Assembly: GCA_019671135.1 (NCBI GenBank)
Contig: JAHRHY010000014.1
Coordinates: forward strand, 184,001-248,000
DNA length: 64,000 nt
Direction: 5' to 3'
From: Linnemannia hyalina
Taxonomy: Eukaryota; Mortierellomycota; Mortierellomycetes; Mortierellales; Mortierellaceae
Shown: piece after piece, positions 1,962 through 42,460 of the stretch
How the letters are laid out: the number at the start of each line of letters is the position of its first letter
Position numbering within the stretch: position 1 is the first letter of the stretch
Position numbers and translations under genes: made by a program
Notes under the pieces: model-generated
The model's input: only the letters and a program-made list of their open reading frames with translations
What the model was told of the DNA's origin: nothing
The model's database searches: none

Positions 1962-1964
<3 letters not shown>

Positions 1965-2478
1965 AGCAAAAGCAAGTGTACATTTTCACAATGAAGTCAT
2001 TTGGAAGTAAAAAAAGGACTACAGACCAAACTATTCAATGTGCCATCCACCAGTTCTAGTCCAGTCCGGAACTTGGTTCTGCACAACAATTATTGCTGCT
2101 CTTCTTAGCTTAAAGGGGAGACAAAATAAAATCAGACGCGAATAATGTGTATTCCTCCCATCTTCTCCATCATTGATAACCTCCTCCTTCCTAACACACT
2201 CTCCAACAACCGCTTGTTAGCAGCTCGTGGGTCCTTGGTCGCTCCAGGGCGCCTTCTTTCATCATGTGTGGCTAGCGAAGCGCCACACGGGTAGAAACCA
2301 TCGTGCGTGATGTAACCGTATCCTTGACTCCTGTCGCCTCGGAGGCCTGTGTACTTGGATGTCATGTCCTTGGCAGAGATGCCATGGGTCAGTTCCCACG
2401 TGATCGTCTTGGAGCACAGAGGTTTCTAGATTAGCTCTGAGGCCTTCGTCTCCAGGTAGCCAACAAAACTTGTGCAGG
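1962..2478 (-). mobile_element. 5'-truncated non-LTR retrotransposon (LINE) 3' end
   Basis: This minus-strand fragment encodes the same C-terminus as the long LINE at 39.8-41.9 kb. It shares YTGxRGDxSQGYGYITHDG, CGASLATH and GATKDPRAA and ends at a TAG-type stop near 2132. It is followed by the same 3' UTR (GAAGAGCAGCAA, GTTTGGTCTGTAGTCC). The 5' end is truncated at about 2478. An A-tract plus GGGC flanks both sides (1936-1961 and 2479-2504), which looks like a target duplication of up to 26 bp. Unlike the long copy, its 3' tail is not poly-A but reads CTTGCTTTTGCTTTT. The 5' end lies 126 bp upstream of tRNA-Lys. Confidence 0.88.
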
Positions 2479-2603
2479 AAAAAAAAAAAAAAAAAAAAAA
2501 GGGCGAAGTTCAGGCACGGCCTTCTTCGACATCACATGACCTGATTAAGGGTCACGTGGATAAGCCGTCAACTGATAAGGCACAAAAAATTGCCGCAGAA
2601 AAA

Positions 2604-2676
2604 GCCCGGCTAACTCAATCGGTAGAGTGTCAGACTTTTAATCTGAAAGTTGCGGGTTCGACCCCCGCGTTGGGCG
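2604..2676 (+). tRNA. tRNA-Lys (anticodon TTT)
   Basis: A 73-nt cloverleaf. The acceptor stem GCCCGGC pairs with GTTGGGC (two G-U pairs) and the discriminator is G. The anticodon stem TCAGA/TCTGA encloses the loop CTTTTAA with anticodon TTT. The T arm is GCGGG-TTCGACC-CCCGC. There is no intron and CCA is not encoded, as expected in a eukaryote. A short T-run follows about 18 nt downstream, a plausible Pol III terminator. Confidence 0.96.
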
Positions 2677-2989
2677 ATAATACCATTTCTTTTTTTTGTT
2701 TTGCTCGGGCGAAGCAAGAGGAAGGGAAAGGAGGAGGAGGAGTGACTTACTTTTGTGGTTGTCGTTAGTTGTTCTTTGAAAGGGAGGCAGCGTAGCATTT
2801 TGTTTTTTGTGAGAGGGGTGCGCGGAGGGATGAAAAAAAAAAAAAGGTGAGCAGCAAATGTAGAAAACCTTATGAGTAAGGATGAGATCCTGCCTTCAAT
2901 CTCCTTAGTGCCTGAATATTTCGAACAATTCAAATATACATTTTCATAGTAAGCTTTAATACGGTCCACAGGAGAAGAGTTGTGCTACA

Positions 2990-5976
2990 TTAAATAAAAC
3001 CAAACATCTTGTTCTTCTTCTTCTCTTCAGGGGGAGGTGGTGCATGGTGCTGAGGAGGATGCTGAGGAAGGGCCGGAGAGCGAGGAGGGCCATGAGGGGA
3101 AGGTGGTGCCACAAACCGTCCCGAGGCATCTTTCTGGATCGTCCGCATTCCACCTGGTCCTGGAGCGCCGCCGCTTCCAGGAGCCATTGGGCGACCGCTT
3201 CCTTGTTGTGGTGGCGGACCTCGGCCTTGTGGTGGCATTGTGTTATTGCCTGGTCCTGGTCCTGGTCCAACTGTTCGAGAGCCTCCCGGTCCTGGTCGCT
3301 GCTGCTGCTGCTGTTGTGCATGGACTGGTGCGGAATAGGGCGGGATCACCGGCGCAATGGGTCTCAAAGGCCCCCTCGCCAAATCCTTCAAACTGAAAAT
3401 AAATTGCCTCGGCGTAATAATATGAGTCGACCCAATGACAATATCCCTGCCCATCGAATGGCACAACTCATACATGGCCCGGATCTCTGAGTAAGTGACC
3501 CCTCCCGCAATGAAAACCATCAACCTCGATCCCTTGACGTTGGGTCGTTTCTTCTCCCAGGCCGGTTGAGCCGTCTTGCGGAGGGATCGTGTAGAGTCTT
3601 GCGAGTCGAGAGTGGGTGCCTCGGTGGTGTATGGGTAGAGGATTGGGTCAAGGGTACCGCTGATGTGCTCCTCGACGATTTTCTTGGCCTTTGTGATGTA
3701 CCGGGAGAGGTCGAAGGGTTGGTCTTCGTCCTCGGGTTTTTTCCGCGGATAGAAGGGTTTCTTCTTTGACCTCGGTGCCGATCCACCCTATCAATGTAAT
3801 AAGACAGATAGAAAGAGTTAGTAAACGCGAAATGAGCGCGCTTCCATTTCCTGGGTCAAAATAATGACCAGAAAAGAATTCAGTCAACTTACTCGCTCGG
3901 TGTTGACGCCAAGGAGACCGAGGTTACGGATGGCCTCAACATTATCATTCGACATCCTGGCAAGACCCAAAAGCTGCTCCTGATCCTCATTCCGCAGCCC
4001 CCCACGACAGATCATATACAACATCAACAACCTCGCCTTGTCCATCCCTGAAACATCGGGATCATCCAAGAAAGGCACCATCTCTGCCAACACTTGCTTC
4101 GGCAAATGTCCCTCCACCGTCTCTCCAGTCGCCAACTGCTGCTCAACCAAGCCCAGCTCATTGATTTTGGACTCTTCAAAGATCCTCATACACTCCTTGG
4201 CGATATGGATATGGGTTGAGTATTTGGCCTTCATGTCCTGGAACTGCGGTAGGTTGGCGAGCTGGTCCTTCATGTTCCTGAGCGAGGCCACTTTATCCGA
4301 GTCGCCCCTCAGCGCCTCGTTCTCGGCGACGAATTGGTTGAATTTCGAGGTCAGCGTGCTGGCGGTTTCGACGATATGAGCGTGGCGGATATCAGTGAAA
4401 ACTTGGTCCGACTCGTCAATCACCACCGAAACCGCCTCGGTTGTCCCGTCGCCGTTCTCGATGTCGTAGGTGAATTTTGTTCCGTCCTCGATCGGTAGCA
4501 GGTCGTTCGCCATGGCCTGGTATGTGAACTCGTGCACGATTGCCGCCGTGATATCGATCGATCTGTCCAGAATCAATATCGTCCCTTGTCCCTGTTGCCT
4601 TCCCTATAGAAATGGATTGGCCCGAGAAAAAACAAATATATTTTAGCTTGAGCGGTGATATGAATGAGTTGAACGCGTACCAGAAAAAATAATGATTCAT
4701 GGTCTTCCTGATGGTAACACTTACAGCCATGTCTTGGTTCGATCGGATATAGGCCTCCAGTTCACTCTGCAGCAACCCTGCGAGTCTCATGGACTGTGTC
4801 CGCTTCCCGTCCTCGGTTTCTGGCGGTCGAAAGTATCGGATCGAAGGGAAATCGCCCAACGTCGCAATCACCGACACCAGCTACATTCGTTTACATAAAA
4901 AAACAAGACAACCATCATGTTAGTTTTGTGCGAATATAACATACGTTACATAGAAATATAAGTAATGGCTTTTGCGAATGGATTGAAAATGTTGTACCTG
5001 TTTGGCGATAGAGTCCATTTCTGCAGAAAGCTCCATTTTCTTTGCGGGCGAGTAGAGCGTGTAGAAACTTGAAGGAGACTCCAAGGAAAACACTCTTGAC
5101 TCAATGGCTAAAAGGAGGTTGTTGTCAAAAGTAAAAAAAAAGTCAAATTAATGAAAATGAAAAGGAGCACTTTTCAGAGTATTTCTCCGCTTGGCCCTGA
5201 TCCAATTTAGGGATAGCATGCATGGTTAACGATGTGATACCTGTAAAGTCCATGAAGAGCTCCCTGAGTGTTTTGATGTACTTTGAGACGGGCGATTTTG
5301 TCAATCGTTCGAACAGACGGTCTTCCAGAGCTATGAAAACGACATACAGAGGCGTTCAATGTCAATCAATTGTTCAGTTGCAATACATGACGAGTGGAGA
5401 CGAAACACTACAACTTACGAGCTGTAAAGAGGACGTGAGCGGCCTTGTATTTTCCGGTGGGGCTGTCACTTGGATAGTCGTCCATCAGCCGCTGAACCGA
5501 CTCCATGCACGGCGTCAACAGGTAGACTGCCTCCAGGGAAGCGTACGCCTGACGTTTGCTCTCCAGCATCTCCACCACTACATAAGAAAGAGAAACAGGG
5601 AGAACAAGAGTGTGTCAGAATCCTATTAGCTATCAAGCAAAAAAGGAATAAAGCGCGCTAGACATAACAACAGACCGAACAGAGCTCACATGGGACAATA
5701 CTTACAGGTGACATTCCTGTCCATGATGTCAAACATCTTGCAGGCGCTGAGGACGATTTTGTTTGTTTTTGCATCCAGGACGACAATCTTGTACCTCTCT
5801 GGAGGTTGAATCGAGTCGATACTCCCGATGATGCCTAGCGAGAGAATGGAATGAAAAGTCATGAAGGTTAGTGTTCTGAAGGAGGGTTGAGTGTTATCCT
5901 GGTGTGTGGTGGCAGTAGTCGACTGGTGGTGGGTTGTGGCCATACGGTCGTGGAGCGCTTGGACGATTGAAGTCAT
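2990..5976 (-). CDS. SEC1: Sec1/Munc18 (SM) family syntaxin-binding protein (eight exons)
   Basis: Binds syntaxin/SNARE complexes and drives vesicle fusion at the plasma membrane. Exons on the minus strand are 5976-5946, 5834-5706, 5577-5419, 5330-5241, 5107-4998, 4880-4725, 4603-3893 and 3787-2990. All junctions keep frame and give 727 aa, close to yeast Sec1 (724 aa). The N-terminus joins to MTSIVQALHDRIIGSIDSI and is followed by RYKIVVLDAKTNKIVLSACK and AVYLLTP, both typical of domain 1. The central LILDRSIDITAAIVHEFTY is the SM signature, and VFIAGGVTYSEIRAMYEL is the conserved C-terminal strand-helix. The last 110 residues are a Pro/Gln/Gly-rich tail, as in fungal Sec1. Vps33, Vps45 and Sly1 are less likely because of that tail and the length. 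Confidence 0.93.
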
Positions 5977-6361
5977 CGTGGACTAAATAGCTTAGCGCAG
6001 AGAGCAGTCAGTTGGAGAGATGGTATTGAGAGTTGGTCAATCGGTTGAAGTGAAGGAGAGGTGGAACAGGTGGTGAGGCGTGAGGAGGATGTAGTTTGTA
6101 GTCAAAGGTGTGTCGGGTGGGAGAGTGAGGATGATGGCGGAAGAGATGATGAGAAGAGAAAGAAAAGAAAGAAAGGAAAATAGAAAAGAGGGAAGGGGAA
6201 AGAAGCGCGGTTGATGAAAAGAAGGGCTACGGTCGTGAGGGGTGAGACCGATTGAAGTGGGAGATGGACCACTGAAATTAATTGGTAGACATTGCAGTAT
6301 GTATTGTGTGGTAGATAAAAAAACACACTTGTGGGTGCTATCTGTCAAAATGTGCAAGGAT
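5977..6361. other. spacer between SEC1 5' end and TMEM115-like 3' end
   Basis: There is no gene here. It holds the purine-rich upstream region of the minus-strand SEC1-like gene and the 3' flank of the next minus-strand gene. I see no sharply defined regulatory motif. Confidence 0.5.
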
Positions 6362-8261
6362 CTATGGCTTCTCTTCCTTGCTGCTGCTGCTGCTGCTGCC
6401 AGACTCTGGTGCATCATCCAATGCAGACGTCTCAAACAGAACCTCGCCTTCATTCGTCGCTGCTGCTGTTAAGGCCGAAGGTCCTCCTGAAGATACACTC
6501 GAGGATGAAGGAGGGAACAAGGCGGGGTTGTTGCTTGCTGAAGCAGTAGGATTCAAGAATGTCTTTTGGCTCAGTCCAGGCAAACTTGCGCTGTTGCCCG
6601 CCGCTGCATGCAGTCTCATATCCAGAGCCTTCAGTGCCAGAGCCCTTTTGTATTGTTATTTAGTAGGGGTATTAATAACCGTTATGAGGTAGCAGCATGG
6701 ATTCAAAGAAGAGTCTCCAATCGAAGAAAGTATAAGGAAACATACCTCCTGCGTTCGGCTTCGGCACGGAGACTGGCTGGCTGGCTCATGGGAAGAATCA
6801 TGCCAGCCATTTGGGGGTTCTCCAGATCGTTTTGAAAGGTCGTTCCAAAGCCCAGAGGAGAGCAGATATGAAGGCGCACAAGAATTCCAAACACCAAGTT
6901 CGACACCACCTTGACCGGAGGTCTATTATGAATAGAAAAAAGAACATAGTTGTCAATCGTGTGCCAGGCGGTGGTGACATTTCGCCTGATAGTTCAGGTG
7001 TAGCTATAGCTTATGAGTTAGTTCCGAGAGTGAAAAGAGACTTACTGGGCAGCTTCGGGGAAGAATGAAGCGAAAGCAAACGTCTCGCTCCTGTCACCTC
7101 GCACACCATCCTGAGTCTTGAAAAAGCGGGAATACACCCATGAGATGAGCAATCCATAGATAGCCATGAGAAGCTGTGTCTGACTCCTTGTCAAAAGACT
7201 CTGAATGATCATGAACACTGCAAACAGCATTGGCAATGTCTATCATAAACGAGTAAGAAAAAGCCAGATTAGTCGATGTTGCCTTCCGATCTGATTCCAG
7301 CATGCATTTTCGGATCCTTAAAAATGCTTTAACACGAACCTTGACACGAATTGAGAATGCGCCCCAGAGTGTCACCAAGTGTTCAGGAACAAGCTGCTTG
7401 AAGCCCACAAGAAACCCTGCCAAAACTGCTGTCAATCCATATGCCTGTGTCCCATATCTATTTTGAAAGAACAATCAGAACCGTTATTATTAGCGAGAAA
7501 GCAACAAAAGGGCGAGTCATCTCCATAAAACCAAAGCAGGTGGAGTCTTGAATTGTTCTTTGATGCACTTACAAAAGATCTTCGTTACCGCGGACAATAT
7601 ATTCGAATAGGCAGGTAAAGTAGATTCCGAGCATGGTGCCTACGCTGGTCACTGCCAGAAACTTGAAGAACTCGCGCGAGCCCCATGCACGCTCCAGATA
7701 TTTGCCGCATCCCAATAATGTCGCCGTGTTGAAGACAAACTAGAGGATTGAATGACAATTGGCAAGAAGGGAACATTAATCGAAAGAAGACAATCCAGTC
7801 GTTCCCGCGTGATCACAATGCAAGGCTCCAAAGGTAGTTATGAATCCATGATAGGTTGCTCCTTGCCTGAATGATGCTCCTCTCAAAGAACGACGCTGTG
7901 GCAAATGTCCAGAATCGATAGGGTGCCCTATTGACGTATTGATGAATTAGATAGTGAGACGTGAATCAGCAAAAGAAAGCCCATTAAATCCCAGAATCGA
8001 CGATAGATCGAGATGACGCGACAGAAACACGCGCACTTACGAGACGGGCACAAGGGCGAGGAGGGGGACGAGGATATCTTCCGAGTTTCCGGGATAGTCG
8101 GGCGAGTCTGCGGGTGCGTCACCGTGGCCGATGAGGGCCATACTGTCTCTAAAGCGGAGGGCCATTCCCAGGGCGGTCATGACGGTCATGGCCGTTGAGA
8201 CTGACTTTGTCAGGGGAGGCACATTCGTGAATGTTGAGCGCCACGATGAAGATTGCGACAT
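6362..8261 (-). CDS. TMEM115-like Golgi integral membrane protein (rhomboid-like, DUF1751; seven exons)
   Basis: Family members are multi-pass Golgi proteins with a rhomboid-like fold, linked in animals to Golgi-to-ER retrograde transport. Exons on the minus strand are 8261-8041, 7927-7867, 7739-7573, 7457-7340, 7239-7046, 6922-6746 and 6644-6362, giving 406 aa (human protein 351). Conserved blocks are PYRFWTFATASFFE, LLGCGKYLERAWGS, GTQAYGLTAVLAGFLVGFKQ, LLISWVYSRFF, RGDRSETFAFASFFPE, and the juncture AEAERRR + ALALKALDMRL, which matches the animal C-terminal block. Four to five hydrophobic helices are visible, followed by a Ser-rich cytosolic tail. The second intron (7866-7740) uses a GC donor. 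Divergent from the Zn2Cys6 gene. Confidence 0.9.
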
Positions 8262-8372
8262 TGTTGGTGGTCGTTCTTGGTGCGTTCCTGTTTGTTTTTG
8301 TCTTCTGTGGGGTGTGTCGTCTGGTAGTTCCCTTTGGGTGTGTTTCCTGTTTCCAGAGTTGAGAGAGAGAGG

Positions 8373-8403
<31 letters not shown>

Positions 8404-9069
8404 CGCAGGAAAGAAGAAGATGTGAACGAAATAAAACAGATGATGAAAATGATGATGCGAATAATAATAATAACACGCGGCGTGATGGTGTTGGTGGTGG
8501 TGGTGGTGGTGGGACAAGCAGACAGGCAGGCAGACAGCAGGCAGGCAGACACAGACAAGCAAGTGAAACAAACAGAAGGCCTCTGCCTGAGGAGAGTGCT
8601 GTACGTTGAGGAGAAAAATGGTGCCCCTCCTTTGTTCTGCCAAAAGAAAGATGGGAATGTGACTGCCTTGATCATGTGATATGTATCCTTGCTCCTGTAG
8701 AACCTCGAGGGAGGTCATTTTTTTTTCTCTCGAGGCAGACAGAGAGACACAGAGACAGGGAGTGACAGAGAGCTCTGAGGGTGAGAGAAAAAGATCAGTG
8801 ATCTCTCTTTTTTCTTCTTTTCTTTTCTTTTCTTCCTTCTTTTTTTCATTTTCTCATTCAAACCACACACCCAACACCCAGCATACTCATTCGACAAACA
8901 TTCATCCAAACACGGTCGCTGCTGCTTGATCTTCCCTCTCACTCTAGCCAGCTCTCAACCAGACCAAGCGATCCTAAGGGAACCACTACCACCTCAAAAA
9001 CCAAAGCATAAGAGGAACAAGGTTAAAGCGACCCGTCTCCTTATCTCCATCCTCACCCTACAACAAGCC
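8262..9069. promoter_or_regulatory. shared upstream region of two divergent genes
   Basis: About 800 bp separate the start codons of the TMEM115-like and Zn2Cys6 genes, which diverge from here, so it must contain both promoters. It carries a GA microsatellite (8361-8399), a short GGT/TGG repeat (near 8489-8512), CAGG repeats and pyrimidine-rich tracts (8800-8850). No TATA box is convincing. Confidence 0.6.
8361..8399. repeat. (GA)n microsatellite
   Basis: An almost pure GA dinucleotide run with one GGG interruption, in the leader of the TMEM115-like gene. Reading frames across it are Arg-Glu or Leu-Ser artefacts. Confidence 0.9.
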
Positions 9070-30167: not shown

Positions 30168-30170
<3 letters not shown>

Positions 30171-32877
30171 TACTGTTGAAGAACAAAGAGGGTACAGAAG
30201 TGAGAGTGAGCGATGGAAAAAAAGTGTCCGAGAGAGAAGTGGAGAAGAGGAAGAGGAGGGAAGAGTGGAGAAGAGGAAGAAGAGAGACAAATGAAAAGGA
30301 GAAGAAAAAGAAGAGAAAGAGTGCGGCCGAGTCGAGATTGCTTTGATGCTGCTGATATGAACTGAAGTTGAGAGGGTTGAGCGGACGACGAACAGCCTCT
30401 TTATATAAGTGGACAGTATTGAGTGATACTATTCGATTTCTAATATCAATTCAATGGAGTATAAAGTGAGAAAAATGAATACAAGTCCGAGTCTGACTCC
30501 ATTCATTTATTCCATTGAAAAACAATAATTGTCCGTTCGCAAAGAGGGTAAACGTAACAAGGACCCCTCTTTTCATTTCTCTTGCCCCACGACAAGTACA
30601 GTAGCTACTTGACAGATAGCGCCTAATATGAAGAGGACCAGAGGACTGGGAGGTAGCTCTTTTCCTTGTGTACCTCTCAACTGGGCTACTTCGTACTTAA
30701 ACAAACAACATCACACTTGGGCCTTCTTCTCCCCCACATACACTTACACTTAAACAGACAAACATACGATCCCCCATCTGTATTTGGTCCATCTCTGTCA
30801 TCCTTATTTTCTTGGTCAGTCAGTCAGTCAGTCAGCAAGTCATGCAAAAATCACGAACCATCGAAGAGGACGTTCTTCTACGTAGGAGAAGGTACCTCTC
30901 TGGTCTCTGCTGGTACTATATTACGAGAGTAGACTCAATAATTAAGCACTTGACGGCTAGACCTTTCTTCGTCGCCTTTCAATAACCCCATTCAAACAAA
31001 CATATGTTCAGGACTATTAGATATTGGAGAAACAAACAAAAATCTGTGGGGGAGAACAAATGGAAGGAGAACAGACATGGCGACCGACACGACACACAGA
31101 CACGGGGGCCTTCTTCGTGTTTATTGTTTGCAAATGCGCTGTTTGTTTGTACTGTACCTTTTTTGGTCGCGCACCTGTGGGTTGGTAACCTGACCTAGAG
31201 TGTGCATCTCTCTTCCACTCTCTTTCTCGTTCTTTCCAGCTCCTCCACTTACTCTCTTCACTCGGTTACCAACCAAACCAATCCAACCTTACTTTGATAT
31301 GTCAACAGCAACCCCTTTCCAATTTCCTCTGCCTTGTCCCTACTCTGTCCTGACATGTCGGTCTGTCTGTTTTTCGGATAGACCCAAAACAAAATTAAAA
31401 CGACAAGTATAAGAAAAAGGACTAAACGGAGAAAAGGAATGAAGTATAAGAAAAAAGGACTAAACGGAGAAAAGGAATGACATGGGAGGGAGACGCGGCA
31501 AAACGGAATTGATTTTCCTTCCCTAGAAAAAATAACGCATGCAAACAGGTTGGAAGGCCCACGAACAGAAGACAGTAGAAGGATCGAGTAAACGTTGACA
31601 AATGCATGCAAAGAAGGGCAGTGAAAGAAGTGGGCAAAGAGTGGGTGATGGACGATGTTGAAAAACGGCCATCTCGTCATTATCTTGCCCCTTTTTTGTT
31701 CCCAATCATTAAAAACGAACGGCCTTGAGATATTAGTATCCCATCGGTCACCTCTTTCCTTGGTGCTTGCTTGCTTTCCTTTGTCTCCTTTTACTTTTTC
31801 TCTATTTACGTTTTCTCCTTTGTCCTCTTCTCCAATGTGCCCCTCCTCCTCCTCTCCTTTGTTTCTCCTTTTCTTTCTAATGTAATATTCGAACTCTGCT
31901 TGTGGATCCGATGGAAAAAAAGTATAGGAAATCAACAGATCAGAGCATCTTCAACACAGATCAAAGGGGAAATAAAATGAAAAAGAGGGGCACTAAAGGG
32001 AAAAGGACTGAACGATGATGCGTAAGTGCATTGGCCGTTTTGTGTTCACGGAGTTGCCTTGCTGCTGGATCCTACGACTAAACACATAATCACAAATGAG
32101 CCAAAACAAAAATATTTTTGTCGTGTCTCGTGTGCGCGTGTATCATTCGTCGTCATCGATTCCTCATAAGCCACAGTCTTAGGCATACATTAGTGGCGTT
32201 CATACACGTGATCGCCAGCCGTGTGAGTGCCCTATGTCAAGTCAACCTACACACTTCTCCTCATAGTCCAGTGCAGTGCACTCTTGTCTGTCGTTTGGCG
32301 GGTGCATCTGCTTTTTTGTTCGTTGGTTCTTGGTGCGTGGTCCTTGTTATGTGCCATATGCCTAGTTTTTTCGATTCTAGCACTGTCAAGTATATTTCGT
32401 GAAACTGGTTGTAAAACAAAATAAAATGAACAGCCTCTAAGTTCGAAGCGCGTTTAGGTATGTGTTTTAACAAACGAACAAAACTTTATACAAAATGCAA
32501 CTTGTACCCGCAATCCTAACACTTTGCGGGCATGTCCGCAGACAGGCAAGTGTTCCTAGCATGATGTTGCACATGTAGCAGGCCAGCGATAGTGCGTCCG
32601 AAAACTCTAAGGAGTCCGACTAAGTCTGGCTCTCCTCAGTCTGACGAGTGGCTCATCGCCACGGTTCGGGCCGAAGCCCAAAAAATCAAAAAAAATTAAA
32701 TTATCCTCCCAGGCGAAGCTGGATTGCTCGCTTAGAGTAGCCTTTTTAAAGTGGGGTTTAACCACTCTGTCGATAGACTTGAACAAGCTGGGTCCTTTAA
32801 GATCGCGATGTCTGGCGTCCATGACAGAGGAGATAGACAATAGCATAGAAGGCACCCCTATGCCAGAAGCTATATTA
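30168..32877. other. gene-poor region
   Basis: No supported gene. It contains the upstream region of the methyltransferase, a 37/38-bp direct tandem repeat (31405-31441 and 31442-31479), and at 32607-32870 a minus-strand open stretch (GIGVPSMLLSISSVMDARH ... GFGPNRGDEPLVRLRRARL) that looks protein-like but matches nothing I recognise. Confidence 0.5.
31405..31479. repeat. direct tandem duplication, 37-38 bp unit
   Basis: Two adjacent copies of a unit beginning AAGTATAAGAAAAA and ending GAGAAAAGGAATG, differing only by one A in the A-run. A recent slippage or duplication event in non-coding DNA. Confidence 0.9.
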
Positions 32878-33065
32878 TTTTTTTTTTCGTACACAATTTT
32901 AATTCTCTAACAAACAGCATAGAGAAGTTATGTGGAAGTAAAAGGGGACTACAGACCAAACTCTTCAGTGCACCATCCACCAGTCGCAGTCCGGTCCAGA
33001 ACCTGGCTCTGTGCAACAATCGCAGCTCTTCACAGCTTAAACGGAAGAAAATAAAACTTGTTACG
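32878..33065 (-). mobile_element. 5'-truncated LINE copy, 3' UTR only
   Basis: The minus strand carries the full 3' UTR of the LINE at 39.8 kb: the TTTTATTTTCTTCCGTTTAAG start, GAAGAGCTGCGATTGTTGCACAG, GTTTGGTCTGTAGTCCCC and the terminal GTGTACG followed by an A tail (T-run 32878-32887 on the plus strand). It is truncated at about the stop codon of the ORF. Its 5' side abuts a 27-nt T tract (33066-33092), consistent with insertion into a homopolymer. Its 5' end is 134 bp upstream of tRNA-Leu. Confidence 0.87.
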
Positions 33066-33198
33066 TTTTTTTTTTTTTTTTTTTTTTTTTTTCTTTCCAA
33101 AACAAGGCAAATATTGGTGGCGTCAACCGCACGTGATGCAATCATATTATTGGGTATAGAGTCTAAATATGTAATGGAAACTAAGCTTCCAACGAGTT

Positions 33199-33281
33199 GG
33201 AGAGATGGCCGAGTTGGTCTAAGGCGCCGCGTTAAGGCCGCGGTCTATTCGTAGGCGTGGGTTCAAATCCCACTCTCTTCA
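33199..33281 (+). tRNA. tRNA-Leu (anticodon AAG)
   Basis: An 83-nt type II tRNA. The acceptor stem GGAGAGA pairs with TCTCTTC and the discriminator is A. The D stem is GCC/GGC. The anticodon stem CCGCG/CGCGG encloses the loop TTAAGGC (anticodon AAG). The variable arm is CTA-TTCG-TAG. The T arm is GTGGG-TTCAAAT-CCCAC. There is no intron. Identical base for base to the copy at 39609-39691. Confidence 0.97.
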
Positions 33282-33355
33282 CTATATCTTTTGCCGTTTC
33301 CTTCACTGGAGAGGGTTTACTTTGTCGCGAATGTTGGACGTTGATGTTCTCTTTT

Positions 33356-33803
33356 GGATCAATCTATTTGACAACCCGGGTTGTTCGTTTTATTCAACAA
33401 CCGAACACGTTTGCGTGCTAAGTCCATGTAAGCACTTTTTCATCTTTTTTTGATGATACCATGGAAGATGACACCAAACACTTGCAGTAGCGCTTGTTTT
33501 CGCCACTTCTTTATGGAGCACGACTCCCACGTTGTTCAAAGCGGTTGTTAAGATGCTTTTTATACGGAAATACCGTTTTTTTACGTGTGTGGTGGTGATG
33601 AAGACATAATTTTGGCTGGTGGTGGCATTCGATGGTTGAAAGGGCTTTATTAATGATGTGGATGATAAAAAACGAAGACGCTGCAACAAAAAACATCGAT
33701 GTATTGACTTTAAAGAAAAATAGGTTGTCCATGGACTTAGCATGCAAAACACGTTGGGTTGTTGAATAAAACGAACAACCCGGGTTGTCAAATAGATTAA
33801 TCC
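33356..33803. mobile_element. non-autonomous Mutator-like element (MULE-type MITE)
   Basis: Terminal inverted repeats of 73-74 bp (33356-33428 and 33730-33803) match at all but a handful of positions with one indel; each contains TTTGACAACCCGGGTTGTTC or its complement. The element is 448 bp with no meaningful coding capacity. It is flanked by a perfect 9-bp direct repeat, TTCTCTTTT, at 33347-33355 and 33804-33812. Long terminal inverted repeats plus a 9-bp target duplication are the hallmark of Mutator-like transposons. It lies 66 bp downstream of tRNA-Leu. Confidence 0.9.
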
Positions 33804-33812
33804 TTCTCTTTT

Positions 33813-36071
33813 GCATGAGGTCGCGCCAACTCTTGGTGTTCATTTTGGTGCCGCCTTTTCTTTTTGCCTGGCAATTGAGCTGGTACACCGATGTCCTTTT
33901 TGCATTGCAAAGTAAGGAGAGTTGGATGCAGCTCTGACATCGTCGCGATTAACAGCAACCGATCAAGATTTGGATCTGCAAAATGATCGTCGATGTGCTG
34001 CAATTTTAGTTGAGGTGATCAATCTGATAACGGTGAGAGCCGATCAGCTATTTTAACACGACCAGTCTTTTACTTTTCCTACGTTGACGCGAACAAGTTG
34101 GTTTAAGACAAAACGCGTTCAACTGATCGTCTTTCAATTGACCTTGCCCTGAAGTCAAAATTAGATTGGACGGGTAATGCACTGATTACCCTGAAAAATA
34201 ATAAATGTTGCCTGTTAGGGAAAATGCACGCGCCATCTTATTATCTCTCCTTTCCGATCCCTTCTCTCCCACGATCAAGGCACCACTGCCTCCAGTCTCA
34301 ATAACCGTCGATACTCCCCTCTTTCACAGCAAATCTTTCTTTGCTGCGCTACCACTCTAAGCGGCCAACCAACCACAGCACCCACATACCGCACCTCTTC
34401 CTACGTTTACCAGTAAAAAATACCTGCAGGCACGTCTCGACAAAACTATTGAACTACTCACCTAATCACCTTACCAGATCATTCAAGGAACGACGGTAGC
34501 GACTGTCATTCATTAGCAATGCGAAGATTCGCCCATTATCATCGCTTCGACTTCGCTGGCGCATGCAAAAATGAATTTGTTAAGGTTCTCCTTTTTTAGT
34601 TCGCTTTTTCTGCATCTCATCCGACATACCGGTCCATCTCATTTTTCATCACCGTTTCTATGTACGAGCAGTGTGCGTACTAGATCCTGTCCAATCACCC
34701 AAAACGCCTTGTTCCATCTTATTTTCCTAGTTCTATCTTCCAGGCATCTCCTATTATTTTTCCTCATTTAATCCACCTATATCTGTTCACTGTCTTTTTG
34801 ATACCGCTCTTTTCCATGCATTATTTATCCTCGGACGACATTCTTTTCAGATCACCTTCCTTCTCCTCCTCCTCCTCCTTCCCATTTTTTCTTTCGACCC
34901 ATGCTCCTTCTCAAGCTAACTTTCTTATATCGTCCCAGTTGGACTCTGCTCAGTTTCTGTGCACTTACACTCACCCCTTCGATCACCCACGTCCCGGTGA
35001 TGCTGGGATGTAAATGAATTGCAATCGGCACTTGTGGCGCGTCCGTTGAATCGGCTGTAGCAGTGTTTCCAGAAATACTGATACCTGTTTATTTTCAACA
35101 TGTCCAACGGAAGAAATGCCGTCGTCTTCGTTAGGGTGAACAGAACAAAATAATAAAGTTTAGGAATATGATTATTGGAAAGCCAAGCGTGTGGGAAGGT
35201 TAGAGAAGTAAAATTGTCTTCTTTTTTCATGCCTTTGTATGTGGTGTTTTTTCCGTTTGATTTTCTTTCGCCACTGTTCCATTTGCCATGTCAATCGTCA
35301 ATCTTCTAAGAATTCAGTATCAGTTATCCTTCCTGTTGCTGTTGCACTGCTTCTATGGGGCTACAAAAACGAATTATTTCAATTAATTAAGTGTGTCGTT
35401 ACATGAGAAGCTGGGAGCACATTTGGTTAATATACAGCGTCGGCTACCACTTAACGCATTTTTATTCTTTTTGTTTTCTCTCACTCCAAAAAAGAGCTGC
35501 TCTGCGCGATCAGGAAAAGATATATGACAGCGTGCACAATGTACAAATGGCTGTATCCCAGCTATGCGTGGAACGACGCAAGCGAGTTGCTTCTACCCCT
35601 ATTGTTATCGGCTCCTTCTCCTCCTCTTCTTCCTCCTCCTCCTGACCGCAGCGACACCATGCGAATCGAAACAGACCCCAACCGCCGATCCACCCTTCAA
35701 GCCAAGTATCCATTCCTACAATCCCAAAGGTAGGCGAGTTTGGGTGGAAGCAGTTAGACGACCTCAAGGCCCACCCCTGCCCGTCCTGTTGGTCAGTCAA
35801 GAAAGTTCGAGGATTCCTTGCGTTTTTGCACTGACTACCGGGATCTGAGCTTGAGAGGTCACGAGGCCCATGCAGCTTATCCATACGCAGCAAGATCCTT
35901 ACCATCCCTGATAAAAATCCAACCTTTTTCACAAAAAAATAAATTGTTGTCAAAGAAAGAAAAAAAACTCACTTTCTTATTCCTCGGTAACATTATTTTA
36001 ATTCCAAGCAGCAAGCAACAGCAAAGCGCGTTTTTTTTATAAGCAGTAAGAGAAAAGCATTCTAGCGTCCG
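33813..36071. other. gene-poor region
   Basis: No supported gene. The plus strand at about 35520-35735 reads MRIETDPNRRSTLQAKYPFLQSQ|GTAGGC and, downstream in another frame, GEFGWKQLDDLKAHPCPSC; these look like exon debris of an unknown gene but cannot be assembled. CTCCTC runs (34861-34890, 35611-35641) explain the poly-Ser frames. Confidence 0.45.
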
Positions 36072-38065
36072 TTAAGTCTGGTCCTGACTAGAACCGGCAT
36101 CGGTGCTGTTGCGCTTGTTCTTGACAGACTGTAGCACACGCTCACGAAGCAACTTTTCTCGCAACTGGTTCTCCAGAATCTTTGGGTCCACCGGGGCTGG
36201 TGCCGTAGCTGGTGCCGTCTCCACTGGTGCTGCCTTCGACTCTCCGTTTCCCGCTGCACTACTGTTGGTAGCCGAAGGTGGCGTCCGTGATCTGGAGCGT
36301 GTGTCCTTGCGGATGGTGCGACTTCCCGATCGGCTCCTGGACCGGCTCTGTGAACGCATACGTCTCCGTTTTGAAGAATCCGCGCCAAGGTCACCACCGC
36401 GACGTCCGTTCCTGTCACGATCGCGGTCCTGGCTCCTGTCCTTGCTCCGTCCACCATAGTCATCCCTCTGAGATCGACCTCCTCGCTCTCTGGTGTGCTC
36501 TCGTGAACGACTGTTGCTCCGACGACGAGATCCGGCTCCTCGATAGTAATCATCATCCCGTTTGTAATAGTCACGGTGATCTCTGTCGCGGCTCCTCTCT
36601 CTGTACCGATCCTGTCTCTTGGCATCGTGTCTCCTGCCACCGCCGTAGCCACCAGCATCTCTGCTCCGCGACCGAACGCGCGCTCTCTCACCTTCTTTCT
36701 CTCGTTCTCTCCCCCGTTCTTTCTCAAACTCTCTGCTGCGGCGTTCCTCGTGAGATTTGCGGTCCTCCTGCACTGGGTCTGGCTTGTTGTCAGGTTCTCT
36801 TCTAGTTACCGTGGGGTCCTATTGTCGTGAATTAGAAGATGTACCGCATGTTAGGTTTGCATACTTGTCGCCAGTCAAATTTTGCTGAGAAGGTAGCCAT
36901 AGGAGCTGCAGTGTGAAAAGTGGTTCTACCTTGGCAACATCCAGTGCCTTGGGTCGTGACGCCTCACGAATAGCCTGAGCCTTCTGTTTGAGCTCAGCTG
37001 CGATCGCCCGCTCCTTTCCTTCCTGCTCTCTTATCCGTGCCAATGCATCCTCCTTAGTTTGCTATAGAAATGAGGATAGAATCAAGAAAACATCAACATA
37101 TTGGAAAATCTCGCTCAAGTCGTCAAATGCTCTTGCTGTTTCGAAAGACCAGTGTTTCCTGCCATGAACAAAATTATCGCACCTTGGTCTTGAGGATTTC
37201 AGCCTTTGTAATATCCAGGAACTGCTGAGGAATTCCTCCAAGACTGGTCTGGGCAGAGATCAGCAGCTTCCAGAGCTCCAAAACAAACACTTGTGTGTTT
37301 TTGTCAAGAAATCCTTGAAGGTTGATCTGCATCGACTTCGGATCCGGGGACTATTCTCGCGACAAAAAAAGGACAATAGCGGGCGTGTGTTAGTGCATGT
37401 TGGATGTCCTATAGAACGCATACGCTGCCCTGAGCGTATTTCCTTCTTTTGCGATAGGTCTTGGCTGTTGGTGATGGTGGTACGTGTCTTACAGGTTCTT
37501 CCAGCATTCCGATGGCGTACTCGACAACGACCTCGTCCTCGATCCCAAGCAGTTGGATTACACGCTCTTCCATCCAGTCCTTGATAACTTTCATGTTGAC
37601 CTTCTTCATATCAACCTATCAATTGACCATTGAGAAAATAAAGACAGGAGGATGATGAGTTGAAAAGAAAATAAAGACCGCAGCAGGTGGACCTATCAGC
37701 CAGCCCGATCTATCTGCTCAGTGATATTAAATGAAACAAACAAGATACCTTCTGGCTGAACTCTGGAGGAAAGTTCATGGACTTTAACATCTTTTTATGC
37801 TTGTCGCTGAAGCGAGTGTCCTGGCCGGCACTTGTGCCCTGAAGGGGTGGAAGTATTGGAGTAAGAGGGACACCATTCGTCACCAGAGGAGTTGTTGATG
37901 GGGGGAACTGATTAGCTGTTTGTTGTCTGTGAAGGGGTGCGATTGTGCGCTCTCAGGATTAGTTTACAAGATGACGACAAGCAGCAGAAAGCTATAGCAA
38001 AAGAGATCCCCTGCGGTTGCGTTGTTCTCGCTCTGATGTACCTTGAAGAATCCTGCGTCTCCCAT
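36072..38065 (-). CDS. SRRM1: SRRM1/SRm160-like PWI-domain splicing coactivator (six exons)
   Basis: Nuclear RNA/DNA-binding splicing coactivator. Exons on the minus strand are 38065-38042, 37838-37749, 37615-37493, 37350-37183, 37061-36930 and 36818-36072. Every exon length is a multiple of three, and the total is 427 aa. The N-terminus MGDAGFFKGTSAGQDTRFSDKHKKML closely parallels animal SRm160. The PWI domain (about residues 28-140) includes VNMKVIKDWMEERVIQLLGIEDEVVVEYAIGMLE and MQINLQGFLDKNTQVFVLELWKLLISAQ. A basic coiled segment, a long Arg-Ser/Arg-Asp/Arg-Glu domain and an Ala-Pro linker follow. It is shorter than animal homologues, which have extended RS repeats. Confidence 0.95.
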
Positions 38066-39608
38066 TGTTATACTTGTGAGTGTTGTTGTTTGTTGAATGC
38101 AAGAGAGAAAGAGGCGAGATGTATGGAGAAGAATATGAACTGTTGTGGCTTTTTGTGTCACGTGCGTGTCAAACTGACTGGCGAAGAGGCAGTTAAGCAA
38201 GCGACGTTGCCTTTGCTGAAGTACGAAGAACTTTCTCAGGCGCCACTCTTACAATTCTCCAGTTTGACACACTTTTAACATAATCACTTAAAGGAAGAAT
38301 AATACAAAGACCTGGACTCGTATTTTTCATAGAGGACAAGACTCTCGCTGACGTCTGTGTGAGTTGTATCATGCAAAAGATCGTAGTTTTCCTTTTGTCG
38401 CAGGGACATGGCGTTATATCGAGGGGAGAAGCATGTCCCTGGGGACCTTGATGGGTGTGTCCAAAATAAAATACATTGATCCCATCATTGCGTTCGAGTA
38501 ACAAAGTAAAAAACTGAAAATACACAATGTTGCCGTGTCGCCTGAACAGGGTCTTGAGTACCTTCTGTCGCTCGGCAATAGACGGGTACCTCAATACGGC
38601 CGCTCTGATCCGCAGGCGATAACCTAGGAAGTAAAGGGCTTCAGAGAAGGGGCGCGAAGTTGTTATCACCAATGAGAGGAGGGGTACTTCAAGATCATCA
38701 ATAGATCAGAATAGAGGGAAGGGGGGACGTTAGAAAGCAAAAGTAAGAGGAGAAAACAAGGTTCATGTTTACTAACTCCCAACAAAAAAATATGCTTTCC
38801 GGAGAATGACCTACCAACTTGATCGAAATAGTGAAGAAGCGACCTAGCAATCTAATATGAGCATGGAGTGGTCGACTAAGACTCCAAACACAACAAGCGA
38901 GGTGGTGAAGGCGAAGGCTATAGTGGGAAAAAATACCATGGACGGATGCTCTGTAGTCGATACAAAGACGAGGGCTAGATTAGAGAAAAAGGGTCATTGC
39001 CTGCTGAACGGTAGTCAGTGCACAGACGGGGCATTTTGTGATCCAGGAGATTTAGATAGTGTCAAAGAGGGTGAGGAGCGGGTGCAGATCAATGATATAA
39101 AATAGTGGAGGATAAATCGCATGTCAAAAAAACGAATGAACTAAAAGTCAGTACTGGACTGAAAGAAAACCATGGGAAGACAAGGAGGAAATGGGAGCAG
39201 TGACGGTGCGCGTGCTTACCGAGAAGTGGAGAGTTAAGTGTGTGGGAAAAAAAAGTGCCGCATACGGGCACCAGGTTGCTTGGACCGATCAAAGGCGATC
39301 AGAATGCTTTCAAGGTGCCTGATGCCATCATTTCGTGACTTTGTTGCATGGGTTCATGTCTTTATCTCGCCAAATTGTAATCTATCGCGACAAGCCTTTC
39401 AGCTATCACACCTCGCATCCCATGATTTCTATAGGTGCAGAAAATAAGCGTACGATCCCCAACTCGCATCCTTCAGGCATCGAGAGTAAAGGAAGCAAAA
39501 AAGTCGTTGATGGGCATGCAAGCATCAAGGAGAGCTAACGCGAAAAAAAACAGGCTAGGCCTCTCCGCGTCCAAAAAGTGAAAACTTAAGAAAAGCAAAA
39601 ATAATTAG
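38066..39608. other. upstream of SRRM1; possible exon fragments on the minus strand
   Basis: No complete gene. On the minus strand, 38851-38815 (IARSLLHYFDQV) can splice to 38623 onward (GYRLRIRAAVLRYPSIAERQKVLKTLFRRHGNIVYF) with good TAG acceptors and a GTAGGT donor, and a GTAAGC donor sits at about 39217. The residues look protein-like but I could not find a start or a recognisable family. It is either a small unrecognised gene or a remnant. Confidence 0.3.
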
Positions 39609-39691
39609 TGAAGAGAGTGGGATTTGAACCCACGCCTACGAATAGACCGCGGCCTTAACGCGGCGCCTTAGACCAACTCGGCCATCTCTCC
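39609..39691 (-). tRNA. tRNA-Leu (anticodon AAG), second identical copy
   Basis: The exact reverse complement of 33199-33281 over all 83 nt, with the same stems, variable arm and AAG anticodon. The flanks beyond a few bases are not alike, so this is not part of a long recent inverted duplication. Confidence 0.97.
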
Positions 39692-39822
39692 AGCTCGTGG
39701 ATTCTTGAATTTCTAAGTGTAATTTGATCTAATAACCAATTGTGTCACGTTGGTCGAGAGTTACGCGTTATTTGTAGTAACACGTGACATGCGCCGCCAA
39801 TCAATGTTTTTCGTGAACTGCC

Positions 39823-39836
39823 GCACTCACATTCGC
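39823..39836 (+). repeat. target-site duplication, left copy
   Basis: The 14-bp sequence GCACTCACATTCGC immediately precedes the long LINE copy and is repeated exactly at 41905-41918, directly after its poly-A tail. Confidence 0.92.
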
Positions 39837-39932
39837 TGCAGCAGAAAAAGGAAAAGGAAGCACTCCGTCAACAACACCAAGCCAGGAGACTGCAGCAGAA
39901 AAAGGAAAAGGAAGCACTCCGTCAACAACACC
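39837..39932 (+). repeat. 54-bp tandem repeat at the LINE 5' end
   Basis: A unit starting TGCAGCAGAAAAAGG occurs at 39837-39890 and again from 39891 (identical for 42 nt). Its length is a multiple of three, so the ORF stays open and encodes a repeated QQKKEKEALRQQH coiled-coil-like segment. Confidence 0.88.
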
Positions 39933-41716
39933 GCTTGGTCGTCGCTCGCCTAAAAGAGATCCTATCCAGCCTCAAGGAAACGAAACCACGATACAAACCA
40001 GCCTTTGACACAGATGCTAGCTTTCCTTTGCAAGAACGCCATCAAGTCCAACCACCGCCTGTACCAGGACCCCCGACCACACAGATCGGCCCCCTTTGCC
40101 TGTCTCCAGTAGAGGCGGCGTCCATGCGCGTAGTTCAGGACACACACGTCGACAACTCCACCCCTCGCGTCCTGTACTCGGACGGATCTCTTCTGAACTC
40201 GGGAACGCTAGAAGTATCCCAGGCCTTTGGAGTGGTGGATCTCACTCAGGACAACCCTCTGACAGTACAAGGACGAACGGACGGTCACGCATCCTCGGCT
40301 AAAGCCGAGCTCATGGGCTTATTAGCCGCAGTCTTGTCAGCGCCACCGGAACAGGACATTGTGGTCAAGCTGGACAATCAGTACGTGGTGGAACAGTATA
40401 GTCGCCTGGTGAAGAATCGTCGGGACACCTTACCGAGGAAGCGATTCAGGAGTACATATGCGGGTATCTGGGCGGTGCTTTGTCAGGTTGTGGAATCTCG
40501 GCCAGGCGGGGTTGAGGTGGTGTGGATCAAAGGTCACAGCGACGTCCATGGAAACGAGCTTGCGGATCAGGCGGCGAAGGTGGCAGCACAGAGTGGTTCA
40601 GTGCCCTGGATGGTGGATCTCACTCAACAGACGGATATCACGACCTTTGCACATTGTTACGGCGGGATTGTTGAAATCGATCTACGTCAGCTCCTCAAAC
40701 AACAATCGACAATCCGTCACCATCAGGCCTGGACGTCACAGAGGCGGGTCAAGAGGGCGATCCCTGACATCGATGACGTGGAATGGAACTCGACCTTGGC
40801 TTATGTCCATGACAGGCACGCAGTCTTCACCTTTTACAGCAACAGCAAGGACTCTCACCAACGCACACATCATATCAAAAAGCTGCATGGAATGCTGCCC
40901 ACTCTGAACTCCATGCAGGCTCGCAAGCCCAACCTGTACCCAACATGCGTGTGCCGACGATGCGAGCTCGAGAAGGAGGATAACGATCACGTCTGGAAAT
41001 GCCCTTCGGCAGCTGAGACCACCACTGAGATCTGGAAGGAGGCCATGGGCAAGATTAACGAGTGGGGTGTGCAGGCGACAAACAGCTACAACGCAGCCAG
41101 GAAGCGAGAATACAAACGCGCGGTGGACAGAGGTCGTCAGGTACCGAGGCCAGTACCCATACACTGGTGGCCCCCTTCGGATGCGGATCATGTGCGAGGA
41201 TTTTCCTCCATCGGTGGAGCTCGAGCCGTGCACAGCGATAGTCCAGCTCTCGATCGAGACGAGAAACCGATGTGGAATGTGTCGGATCTCCTCCGCGGCA
41301 TCACCCCCTTGAGCATGTTGACTGAATGGTCCGCGGTTTTCCGGACCCCAATGTCCATCGCCAAGACAGTCCTTCACAAGTTTGTTGGCTACCTGGAGGC
41401 GCAGGCCTCGGAGCTGATCTGGAAACCTCGGTGCTCCGCGACAATCGCATGGGAACAAAGCCAGGGCATCTCTGCCAAGGATAAGACATCCAAATATACA
41501 GGCCCCCGAGGTGATTGGAGTCAAGGATACGGTTACATCACGCACGATGGTTTCTGTCCGTGTGGCGCTTCGCTAGCCACACATTGTGAAGGAAGGTGCC
41601 CTGGGGCGACCAAGGACCCACGCGCTGCTGACGAGCGGTTGTCGGAGAGTTTGTTAGGAAGGAGGAGGTTGTCAATGATGGAGAGGATGGGAAGAATCCC
41701 CTTCATTCGTATCTAG
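39839..41716 (+). CDS. LINE ORF2 C-terminal part: RNase H plus zinc-knuckle region (5' truncated)
   Basis: This is 625 codons of open frame with no start of its own (the frame enters from the truncation point). After a charged Gln/Lys/Glu stretch and a Pro-rich linker comes a type I RNase H with all catalytic acids: YSDGS (Asp 115), AKAELMG (Glu 157), KLDNQY (Asp 179) and GHSDVHGNELADQAAK (His and Asp 243). RNase H removes the RNA strand of the cDNA hybrid during target-primed reverse transcription. Further on is a Cys/His cluster, CVCRRCELEKEDNDHVWKC, common at the end of LINE ORF2. The C-terminal 100 residues are shared with the three other copies in the window. The protein cannot mobilise itself without the missing reverse transcriptase. 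Confidence 0.9.
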   Translation, partial: QQKKEKEALRQQHQARRLQQKKEKEALRQQHRLVVARLKEILSSLKETKPRYKPAFDTDASFPLQERHQVQPPPVPGPPTTQIGPLCLSPVEAASMRVVQDTHVDNSTPRVLYSDGSLLNSGTLEVSQAFGVVDLTQDNPLTVQGRTDGHASSAKAELMGLLAAVLSAPPEQDIVVKLDNQYVVEQYSRLVKNRRDTLPRKRFRSTYAGIWAVLCQVVESRPGGVEVVWIKGHSDVHGNELADQAAKVAAQSGSVPWMVDLTQQTDITTFAHCYGGIVEIDLRQLLKQQSTIRHHQAWTSQRRVKRAIPDIDDVEWNSTLAYVHDRHAVFTFYSNSKDSHQRTHHIKKLHGMLPTLNSMQARKPNLYPTCVCRRCELEKEDNDHVWKCPSAAETTTEIWKEAMGKINEWGVQATNSYNAARKREYKRAVDRGRQVPRPVPIHWWPPSDADHVRGFSSIGGARAVHSDSPALDRDEKPMWNVSDLLRGITPLSMLTEWSAVFRTPMSIAKTVLHKFVGYLEAQASELIWKPRCSATIAWEQSQGISAKDKTSKYTGPRGDWSQGYGYITHDGFCPCGASLATHCEGRCPGATKDPRAADERLSESLLGRRRLSMMERMGRIPFIRI

Positions 41717-41904
41717 TTTTATTTTCTTCCGTTTAAGCTGTGAAGAGCAGCGACAATTGTTGCGCAGAGCCAGGTTCTGGACCGGACTGCGACTGGCGGA
41801 TGGTGCACTGAAGAGTTTGGTCTGTAGTCCCCTTTTACTTCCAAATAACTTCTCTATGCTGTTTGTTAGAGAAATAAAATTGTGTACGAAAAAAAAAAAA
41901 AAAA

Positions 41905-41918
41905 GCACTCACATTCGC
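41905..41918 (+). repeat. target-site duplication, right copy
   Basis: GCACTCACATTCGC, identical to 39823-39836. It separates the poly-A tail of the young LINE copy from the 5' end of the older copy. Confidence 0.92.
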
Positions 41919-42460
41919 CTCTGGACCCCAATGTCCATCGCCAAGACGGTCCTGCACAAGTTTGTTAGCTACTTGGTGGCGCCGGCCTCGAAGCTAATCT
42001 GGAAACCTCGGTGCTCCGAGACGACCGCGTGGGAACAGACCCAGGGCATCTCTGCCAAGGACATGACATCCAAGTACACAGGCCTCCGAGGCGACAGGAG
42101 TCAAGGATACGGTTACATCACGAACGATGGTTCTGCCCGTGTGGCGCTTCGCTAGCCACACATGATGAAAGAAGGCGCCCAGGAGCGACCAAGGACCCAC
42201 GCGCTGCTAACAAGCGGTTGTTGGAGAGTGTGTTGGGAAGGTGGAGGTTATCAATGATGGAGAAGATGGGAGGAGTACCCATTATTCGCGTCTAATTTTA
42301 TTTTGTCTCCCGTTTAAGCTGTGAAGAGCAGCAACAATTGTTATGCAGAGCCAAGTTCCGGACTGAACTAGAACTGGTGGATGGCACATTGAATAGTTTG
42401 GTCTGTAGTCCCTTTTGCTTCCAAATGCCTCTTTTGTGCTGAGAAACAAAACTGTTTACA
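41919..42460 (+). mobile_element. older 5'-truncated LINE copy
   Basis: Begins at the equivalent of CTGGACCCCAATGTCC (41341 in the young copy) and runs through the C-terminal coding region, stop and 3' UTR to ACTGTTTACA. It is roughly 90% similar to the young copy by eye. A 1-nt deletion at NDG-SAR breaks the reading frame, and it has no clean poly-A tail, so it is older. Before the young copy landed at its 5' junction, this element too started about 145 bp upstream of tRNA-Leu. Confidence 0.88.

Follow-up and report, generated by a model that had tools for sequence, protein, structure and literature searches.

A LINE of the fungus Linnemannia hyalina with a near-fixed position and orientation upstream of tRNA genes

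Introduction

Certain non-long-terminal-repeat (non-LTR) retrotransposons of social amoebae insert at short distances upstream of tRNA genes. The TRE5 elements of Dictyostelium land 40-54 bp upstream, in the opposite orientation, and also go to 5S genes; their targeting is abolished by box B mutations, and for TRE5-A the protein of open reading frame 1 (ORF1) contacts TFIIIB proteins (PMC5911963). In D. discoideum 61% of tRNA genes have a TRE (PMC5006619). NLTR-A of D. purpureum (2-6 bp upstream) and NLTR-B of P. pallidum (39-64 bp upstream) both carry RNase H (PMC5911963, PMC5006619) and could not be placed in any known RNase-H group (PMC5006619). These and the other papers cited for known systems are represented here by excerpts, and what we say of them holds for those excerpts: the tRNA-targeted non-LTR elements listed in the review PMC5911963 number four, all of social amoebae, the elements it names for fungi are LTR elements, and its authors expect targeting of genes transcribed by RNA polymerase III (Pol III) to occur more widely. 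Here we describe a long interspersed element (LINE, a non-LTR retrotransposon) of the fungus Linnemannia hyalina (Mortierellomycota, Mortierellaceae), met in a 64-kb stretch of contig JAHRHY010000014.1 (the window; GC ~48%), that is very probably aimed at the upstream flank of tRNA genes.

The genome of strain SCG-10 of L. hyalina has 51.56 Mb, an N50 of 2,317,658 bases, a GC content of 48.28% and 317 tRNAs (PMC8444964, in the excerpts available); the strings 'repeat' and 'transpos' do not occur in the text of that paper. A search of the literature, covering portions of open papers, turned up no fungal LINE reported to target tRNA genes, which is no proof of absence.

Results

LINE copies and tRNA genes in the window

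Three tRNA genes are found in the window by ARAGORN and Rfam (RF00005), and blastn places a LINE upstream of every one of them (Table 1). An initial annotation had claimed as much, reporting four copies of one LINE family at three sites, all pointing away from the tRNA gene with the 5′ end nearest to it; the four copies (1993-2479, 32875-33065, 39836-41901 and 41920-~42460) are indeed there, each on the strand opposite to its tRNA gene. The fixed spacing it described holds as a near-fixed one, while its exact values of 126, 134 and 146 bp give way to measured ones of 124, 133 and 144 bp. The probability that three window sites would each fall 98-223 bp upstream of one of three tRNA genes in the right orientation by chance is ~2.6e-8, a rough value for a slot that was taken from the data.

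The tRNA-Leu gene at 39608-39691 has been hit twice. The older copy there begins immediately past the second copy of the young element's target-site duplication, so the young copy landed exactly on its border, and the earlier claim that the fourth, older copy had held this site beforehand is borne out by the position of the duplication. The first nick of the young insertion would lie at 39822/39823, 131 bp from the tRNA gene, and 144 bp separate the gene from the 5′ end of the young copy. The part of ORF2 that this copy retains encodes RNase H (RNase_H PF00075, E=3.1e-13) and C-terminal Cys/His motifs. The short copy at 32875-33065 has a poly(A) tract, in LINE orientation, on its tRNA-facing side.

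Table 1. Positions of the LINE copies, tRNA genes and target-site duplications in the window, and of copies of the companion element B
Feature	Position	Strand	Basis and remarks
Older 5′-truncated LINE copy	1993..2479	-	blastn 86% to C4 copy; 5′ end (2479) 124 bp off tRNA-Lys
tRNA-Lys(ttt) gene	2604..2676	+	ARAGORN; Rfam RF00005 66.1 bits
Short 5′-truncated LINE copy	32875..33065	-	blastn 93%; 133 bp off tRNA-Leu
tRNA-Leu(aag) gene	33199..33282	+	ARAGORN; Rfam
tRNA-Leu(aag) gene	39608..39691	-	ARAGORN; Rfam
Target-site duplication, copy on tRNA side, 14 bp, GCACTCACATTCGC	39823..39836	.	sequence
Young 5′-truncated LINE copy: 3′ part of ORF2, 3′ untranslated region (UTR), poly(A)	39837..41904 (blastn 39836-41901)	+	blastn; translation
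Target-site duplication, distal copy, GCACTCACATTCGC	41905..41918	.	sequence
Older LINE copy	41919..~42460	+	repeats; blastn 88%; 5′ end formerly at same place, ~145 bp off tRNA
B copy	L020 425-1472	-	
B copy	L010, near C3:59370		
B copy	L063		
B copy	L089		

At the oldest copy of the window (1993-2479) GCCC followed by a long T run, read in LINE orientation, stands on either flank, apparently a duplicated homopolymer target, and a poly(A) tail is not evident. A tRNA-Asn with a long intron that ARAGORN proposed at 6092-6589 was dropped as spurious, being absent from Rfam and from another ARAGORN list.

Sites found from the LINE

A genome search with a 562-base LINE query gave 64 matches, the best 40 of 268 candidates being scored, and these were grouped by hand into 32 sites by joining neighbours within ~10 kb. 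A tRNA gene lies 115-223 bp from the LINE 5′ end at 28 of the 32 sites (median 143.5 bp). Finding at least 28 of 32 sites in the 98-223 bp slot in the right orientation has a chance probability of 8e-90 if the genome has 370 tRNA genes and of 2e-72 if it has 1552, with the slot taken from the data and the sites treated as independent. One of the 28 (C1:4093k-4107k) is an array in which the stretches between some copies lie outside the fetched sequence; at the C5 site, a tRNA-Ser came into view when the sequence was extended. A 29th site, on C3, has as its nearest element not a LINE itself but a companion element, B (described below), 160 bp from a tRNA-Glu gene and with LINEs behind it. The remaining three (C17:731k, C1:3498k and C23:469k) have an LTR element or a further array on the tRNA side: at C1:3498k a tRNA-Arg gene stands beyond an LTR element and was not counted as a direct case, and at C23:469k the fetched sequence runs toward the tRNA side through an LTR, a B element and further LINE and ends before any tRNA gene.

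With the 3′ UTR as a second query, 43 matches were listed, including new copies, and eight of these were examined (L099-L106), L099 and L100 having been picked with a B box in view and the other six blind. Four of the eight fit (150, 193, 148 and 139 bp), two do not (L102 and L103), and for the other two the fetched sequence stops short of the 5′ end. A third query, made from an old copy, gave further copies in stretches outside the fetched sequence.

Sites found from the tRNA genes

The reverse sample started from a genome search with RF00005, in which 63 tRNAs were listed of 1552 candidates. Ten of these stand at LINE sites already fetched, nine of them with a LINE upstream. From the other 53, 40 were taken blind to LINEs with ~650 bp of upstream sequence, the 13 left out being on C34 (four), on C38 (one) and in the clusters on C17 and C47 (eight more). 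In 19 of the 40, 50 bp or more of LINE is present with its 5′ end 112-221 bp upstream, and all 19 LINEs are on the opposite strand; when the ten tRNAs met at LINE sites are included, 28/50 are occupied. By chance, all 19 would fall in a 126-bp slot of the 650 bp with probability ~3e-14 and share one orientation with probability ~2e-6, the slot again coming from the data. Among the rest, two tRNA genes have B at 174 bp (one also with a 36-bp LINE piece at 127 bp); for another the sole find is a 26-bp LINE piece, at 239 bp, and for two more it is a piece of LTR near 500 bp.

In the combined sample a LINE 5′ end lies no more than 300 bp upstream in 56 of 82 tRNAs, with at least 300 bp of upstream sequence on hand for 80 of them, and the strand is opposite in 56/56. 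Distances run from 98 to 223 bp (median 144, interquartile range 134-157), with none at 0-97 bp. The 56 proximal copies serve 24 anticodons and have 55 truncation points. The measurement of distance and strand over the genome that the initial annotation had put forward, carried out on part of the genome, thus gives the picture seen in the window, with two misfits (L102 and L103), and samples drawn from either direction uphold targeting of the upstream flank of tRNA genes, with distance and orientation near-fixed.

At least two same-direction LINE pieces, which are not always separate copies, are present in 26 of 51 segments, and such nested arrays record the order of insertion at a tRNA gene. 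At C16:195275-199763, 3′ UTR matches are spaced 341-342 bases apart in two inverted sets, which suggests that one truncated copy was duplicated locally rather than inserted anew.

Target site and insertion position

Target-site duplications, taken as at least 8 bp repeated behind an A-rich tail, were found in 20 of the 56 proximal copies; they are 8-17 bp long (median 13) and differ in sequence among all 20. We take the tRNA-side edge of the duplication as the first-strand nick because of the usual order of events in target-primed reverse transcription, so that the position of the nick comes from the duplications and the nicked strand from that order. On this basis the nick lies 98-213 bp from the tRNA gene, with a median of 127.5 bp. 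The longest distances include C17:591k (182 bp) and C1:1971k (213 bp), where a short piece of B tail (36- and 41-bp matches) stands between the tRNA gene and the LINE; without these two the range is 98-161 bp.

A pyrimidine precedes the nick in 17 of the 20 and G is the first duplicated base in 12, a weak Y|G preference, beyond which no strong bias was seen in the columns around the nick, judged by eye over 20 sites and with no statistical test run. In nine cases the duplicated bases come from an older LINE, each time from a different position of the element, and in one from an LTR; those of the other ten match no LINE, LTR or B sequence. Among the nine LINE-in-LINE cases, the match starts within ~5 bases of the nick in four, at the edge of the older copy, and 14-18 bases before the nick in five. 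Since the distance is kept whether the target is an older LINE, an LTR or other sequence, position and not local sequence sets the landing site.

Structure of the element

The element is an APE-type (apurinic/apyrimidinic endonuclease) non-LTR retrotransposon with RNase H. Its ORF2 has the domain order endonuclease (EN), reverse transcriptase (RT), RNase H, seen also in the relative P0036, and an A-rich or poly(A) tail and target-site duplications of variable length are present, as in APE-type non-LTR elements. We take the EN-RT-RNase H architecture to be I-group or Tad-like. In the copy on C4, ORF1 has a CCHC knuckle and ORF2 has an Exo_endo_phos endonuclease and RT, followed by RNase H ~1,200 residues into the next stretch; this ORF2 was read and searched as two separate stretches, which overlap in the same frame on neighbouring loci. 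The ORF1 knuckle, CX2CX4HX4C, keeps its four residues invariant in six aligned sequences, and an RRM (RRM_1) was found in two of three ORF1 proteins scanned (P0030 and P0031, the latter being L. hyalina KI688_007792; not in P0033). An AlphaFold model of P0030, built with six sequences, was too poor for a structure search (mean pLDDT 43.9, pTM 0.25). The best match of P0036 among solved structures is L1 ORF2p, with other domains matching LINE endonucleases and RNase HI, a comparison that places the element in no clade. Sequences related to ORF1 or ORF2 occur in Linnemannia elongata, L. gamsii, Mortierella hygrophila and Entomortierella parvispora.

Among 19 genome matches to the EN part, four span all or all but one of the query residues without stops (C4, C20 and C5 at 100%, C22 at 93%), so that in four copies the endonuclease part is open and nearly complete. 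The C4 copy was considered as full-length and rejected, since a search with the 5′ region and protein P0031 showed ~0.8 kb of its 5′ end to be missing; by the 5′ region search the C20 copy is the longer one, starting near C20:145443. The C5 copy is split by ~6.2 kb. From the 5′ part of C20 and the rest of C4, and not including the C20 3′ end, we estimate the full element at ~10 kb.

Observations against targeting, and other Pol III genes

Several observations weigh against a LINE that is guided strictly by Pol III promoters. Sixteen of the 40 blind-sampled tRNA genes have no LINE in the expected orientation, no B and no LTR in the 650 bp examined, and at one of these sixteen (C47:962684) a LINE piece 304 bp upstream points the same way as the tRNA. 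A tRNA-Phe gene (C12:2569193) has a LINE piece 12 bp downstream; in the 33,052 downstream bases, the other LINE pieces listed are more than 680 bp from the tRNA. The copies L102 (C3:956819-957490) and L103 (C12:3060928-3061600) have no tRNA gene or other convincing Rfam match within 590 and 390 bp, respectively, so the preference is strong but not absolute. Among the six copies picked blind with the 3′ UTR query, two fit, two are misfits and two have a 5′ end that was not reached, a weaker outcome than that of the first census. Duplications were detected in no more than 20 of the 56 proximal copies, and both censuses are samples of the genome and not a whole-genome scan, with the sites found from the LINE grouped by hand. 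The sole 5S candidate among the LINE matches listed, on C22, has the fitting orientation and a distance (340 bp, not ~130) that does not fit unless a truncated copy lies between.

That candidate is a 93% LINE relative at C22:113522-118455 (-), whose 5′ region ends near 118455, 340 bp upstream of a 5S gene at C22:118796 (+) on the opposite strand; this gene is one of 14 5S matches. Two U6 matches on C3 are near no copy among the LINE matches listed. An Rfam search of four stretches then lacking a tRNA gene (L045, L047, L050 and L053) found no other Pol III gene in them, and a second B-box pattern search added nothing. At L103, a B-box-like stretch followed by a T run was seen by eye ~190 bp away.

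Discussion

Docking on Pol III promoters and its alternatives

We consider it very probable that this is a tRNA-gene-targeted LINE whose ribonucleoprotein docks at Pol III promoters and nicks ~127 bp upstream with a weak preference for Y|G and a fixed geometry. Tethering to Pol III factors would be the simplest explanation and the best inference, because the distance persists when the target DNA is an older LINE, an LTR or other sequence. Contact between proteins would recruit the ribonucleoprotein to assembled Pol III promoters, TFIIIB or TFIIIC being a likely partner; the APE endonuclease would then nick the tRNA-sense strand ~127 bp upstream of the 5′ end of the mature tRNA, reverse transcription would be primed at the nick, and a second cut ~13 bp further out would give the duplication. 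With the geometry fixed, copies would face away from the tRNA gene, their often truncated 5′ end nearest to it, and with position and not sequence recognised, a new copy would land before or inside the previous one and push it outward, so that head-to-tail arrays would grow.

If tRNA-LINE cassettes had spread by segmental duplication, the cases would not be independent, and some probably are duplicates, as the C16 matches at 342-base spacing in two inverted sets and the equal-scoring tRNA clusters on C17 and C47 suggest; with 24 anticodons, 55 distinct truncation points among 56 copies and 20 duplications that differ, however, no single cassette can be the origin, and we hold this account of the data to be extremely improbable. 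It is also highly improbable that the endonuclease reads a DNA motif whose presence upstream of tRNA genes is accidental. The weak Y|G at the nick (pyrimidine in 17/20, G in 12/20) is what such an enzyme might leave, yet by eye no other column is strongly biased, and the distance stays constant where the duplicated bases belong to an older LINE (9/20, nine positions) or an LTR. Selection could likewise produce an association, if insertion took place everywhere and copies survived only upstream of tRNA genes. The flanks of tRNA genes probably tolerate insertions, and two copies do exist away from a recognisable tRNA gene, but tolerance explains neither an orientation of 56/56 nor the absence of copies at 0-97 bp together with a peak at 134-157 bp. 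Copies that must be young, being 98-100% identical to another copy, are placed in the same way, and we find this reading very doubtful.

A further alternative is that open chromatin, the edge of a positioned nucleosome or fork stalling near tRNA genes guides the element, and not contact with Pol III factors. At ~127 bp the nick lies beyond the 40-54 bp window of TRE5, which leaves room for a partner other than TFIIIB, and Ty1 integrates in nucleosomes upstream of tRNA genes (PMC5911963); against this, the fixed strand and narrow peak favour a docked, oriented complex, and we regard guidance by chromatin or stalled forks as unlikely.

There are about even chances, in our judgement, for a broader picture. 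In it, docking on Pol III promoters arose independently in an RNase-H-bearing fungal LINE, which lands near -127, unlike the tRNA-targeted LINEs of the excerpted review (PMC5911963), and acts at many Pol III genes or all of them, 5S among them; a non-autonomous companion with inherited targeting would be its parasite, and a Ty3-like LTR element would use the same tRNA promoter, in a slot 8-15 bp upstream. Four copies with an open, nearly complete endonuclease part, clean duplications and a fixed strand bring two questions within reach of a test: by what means a target-primed element docks at a Pol III promoter, and whether LINEs acquired tRNA targeting more than once.

Comparison with known systems

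The closest likeness is to TRE5-A and the other TRE5 elements: both they and the present LINE are non-LTR elements with an APE endonuclease, occupy a narrow window upstream of many kinds of tRNA gene on the opposite strand, and take up a large share of the tRNA genes (61% against 19/40 sampled, or 28/50). TRE5, however, is classed as L1, has a zinc finger in place of RNase H and inserts at 40-54 bp, whereas the present element has RNase H, a distance of 98-223 bp with the nick at a median of 127.5 bp and a fungal host; an ORF1-TFIIIB contact has been detected for TRE5-A. Given these differences in distance and domain content, it works like TRE5 but is no member of it. NLTR-A and NLTR-B, compared here by description, are like it in being non-LTR elements upstream of tRNA genes with RNase H after RT, and unlike it in their distances and amoeba hosts.

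Elements of the NeSL/LIN group have a restriction-like endonuclease and cut by target sequence. Three tRNA-associated non-LTR elements, NeSL-1_TV at tRNA-Pro, LIN15_SM at tRNA-Arg and LIN25_SM at tRNA-Glu, go to one tRNA gene each (PMC4640811), whereas the present LINE goes to genes of 24 anticodons, at a distance, and has an APE endonuclease. In fungi, Ty1, Ty3 and Tj1 of yeasts also insert upstream of Pol III genes, close to the start site in the case of Ty3 and Tj1 and over up to ~1 kb in that of Ty1, but these are LTR elements with an integrase (PMC5911963, PMC7175516). The Zorro elements of Candida albicans are fungal LINEs with an insertion bias, Zorro3 for poly(A) tracts and Zorro1 and Zorro2 for subtelomeric positions, and none of the three is described as tRNA-targeted in the excerpts of that source (PMC7175516).

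A companion element and an LTR element at the same genes

Element B is ~1.05 kb long, has a repeated 5′ start and ends in a 3′ tail ~75% like the LINE over ~190 bp; a 12-bp duplication was read by eye at the C9 copy. Its unique part has 10 matches in the genome, five of them perfect, and no convincing match in Rfam. B lies 160 bp upstream of a tRNA-Glu, 174 bp upstream of a tRNA-Thr and 174 bp upstream of a tRNA-Lys gene, further copies being in arrays or not examined. It is apparently non-autonomous and is probably carried by the machinery of the LINE.

An LTR of 728 bp takes a position closer to the gene. Read from its TG, it starts 8 bp upstream of a tRNA-Leu gene on C49 (L039, C49:1788674) and 15 bp upstream of a tRNA-Ala gene on C8 (L048, C8:89831); a more diverged copy lies 15 bp upstream of a tRNA-Thr gene on C16 (C16:199883, L060), and a fourth copy (L098 from 193) lies 102 bp upstream of a tRNA-Arg gene on C1. 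In sitting close upstream of tRNA genes this element is like Ty3. The C49 LTR begins with TG, ends with CA and has AAAG on each flank, and LINEs were later inserted inside the LTR at both C49 and C8. At C17:731k the body of an LTR retrotransposon (C17:733201-736000), with pol and an apparent chromodomain and Ty3/gypsy-like by eye, sits in a B element on the tRNA side.

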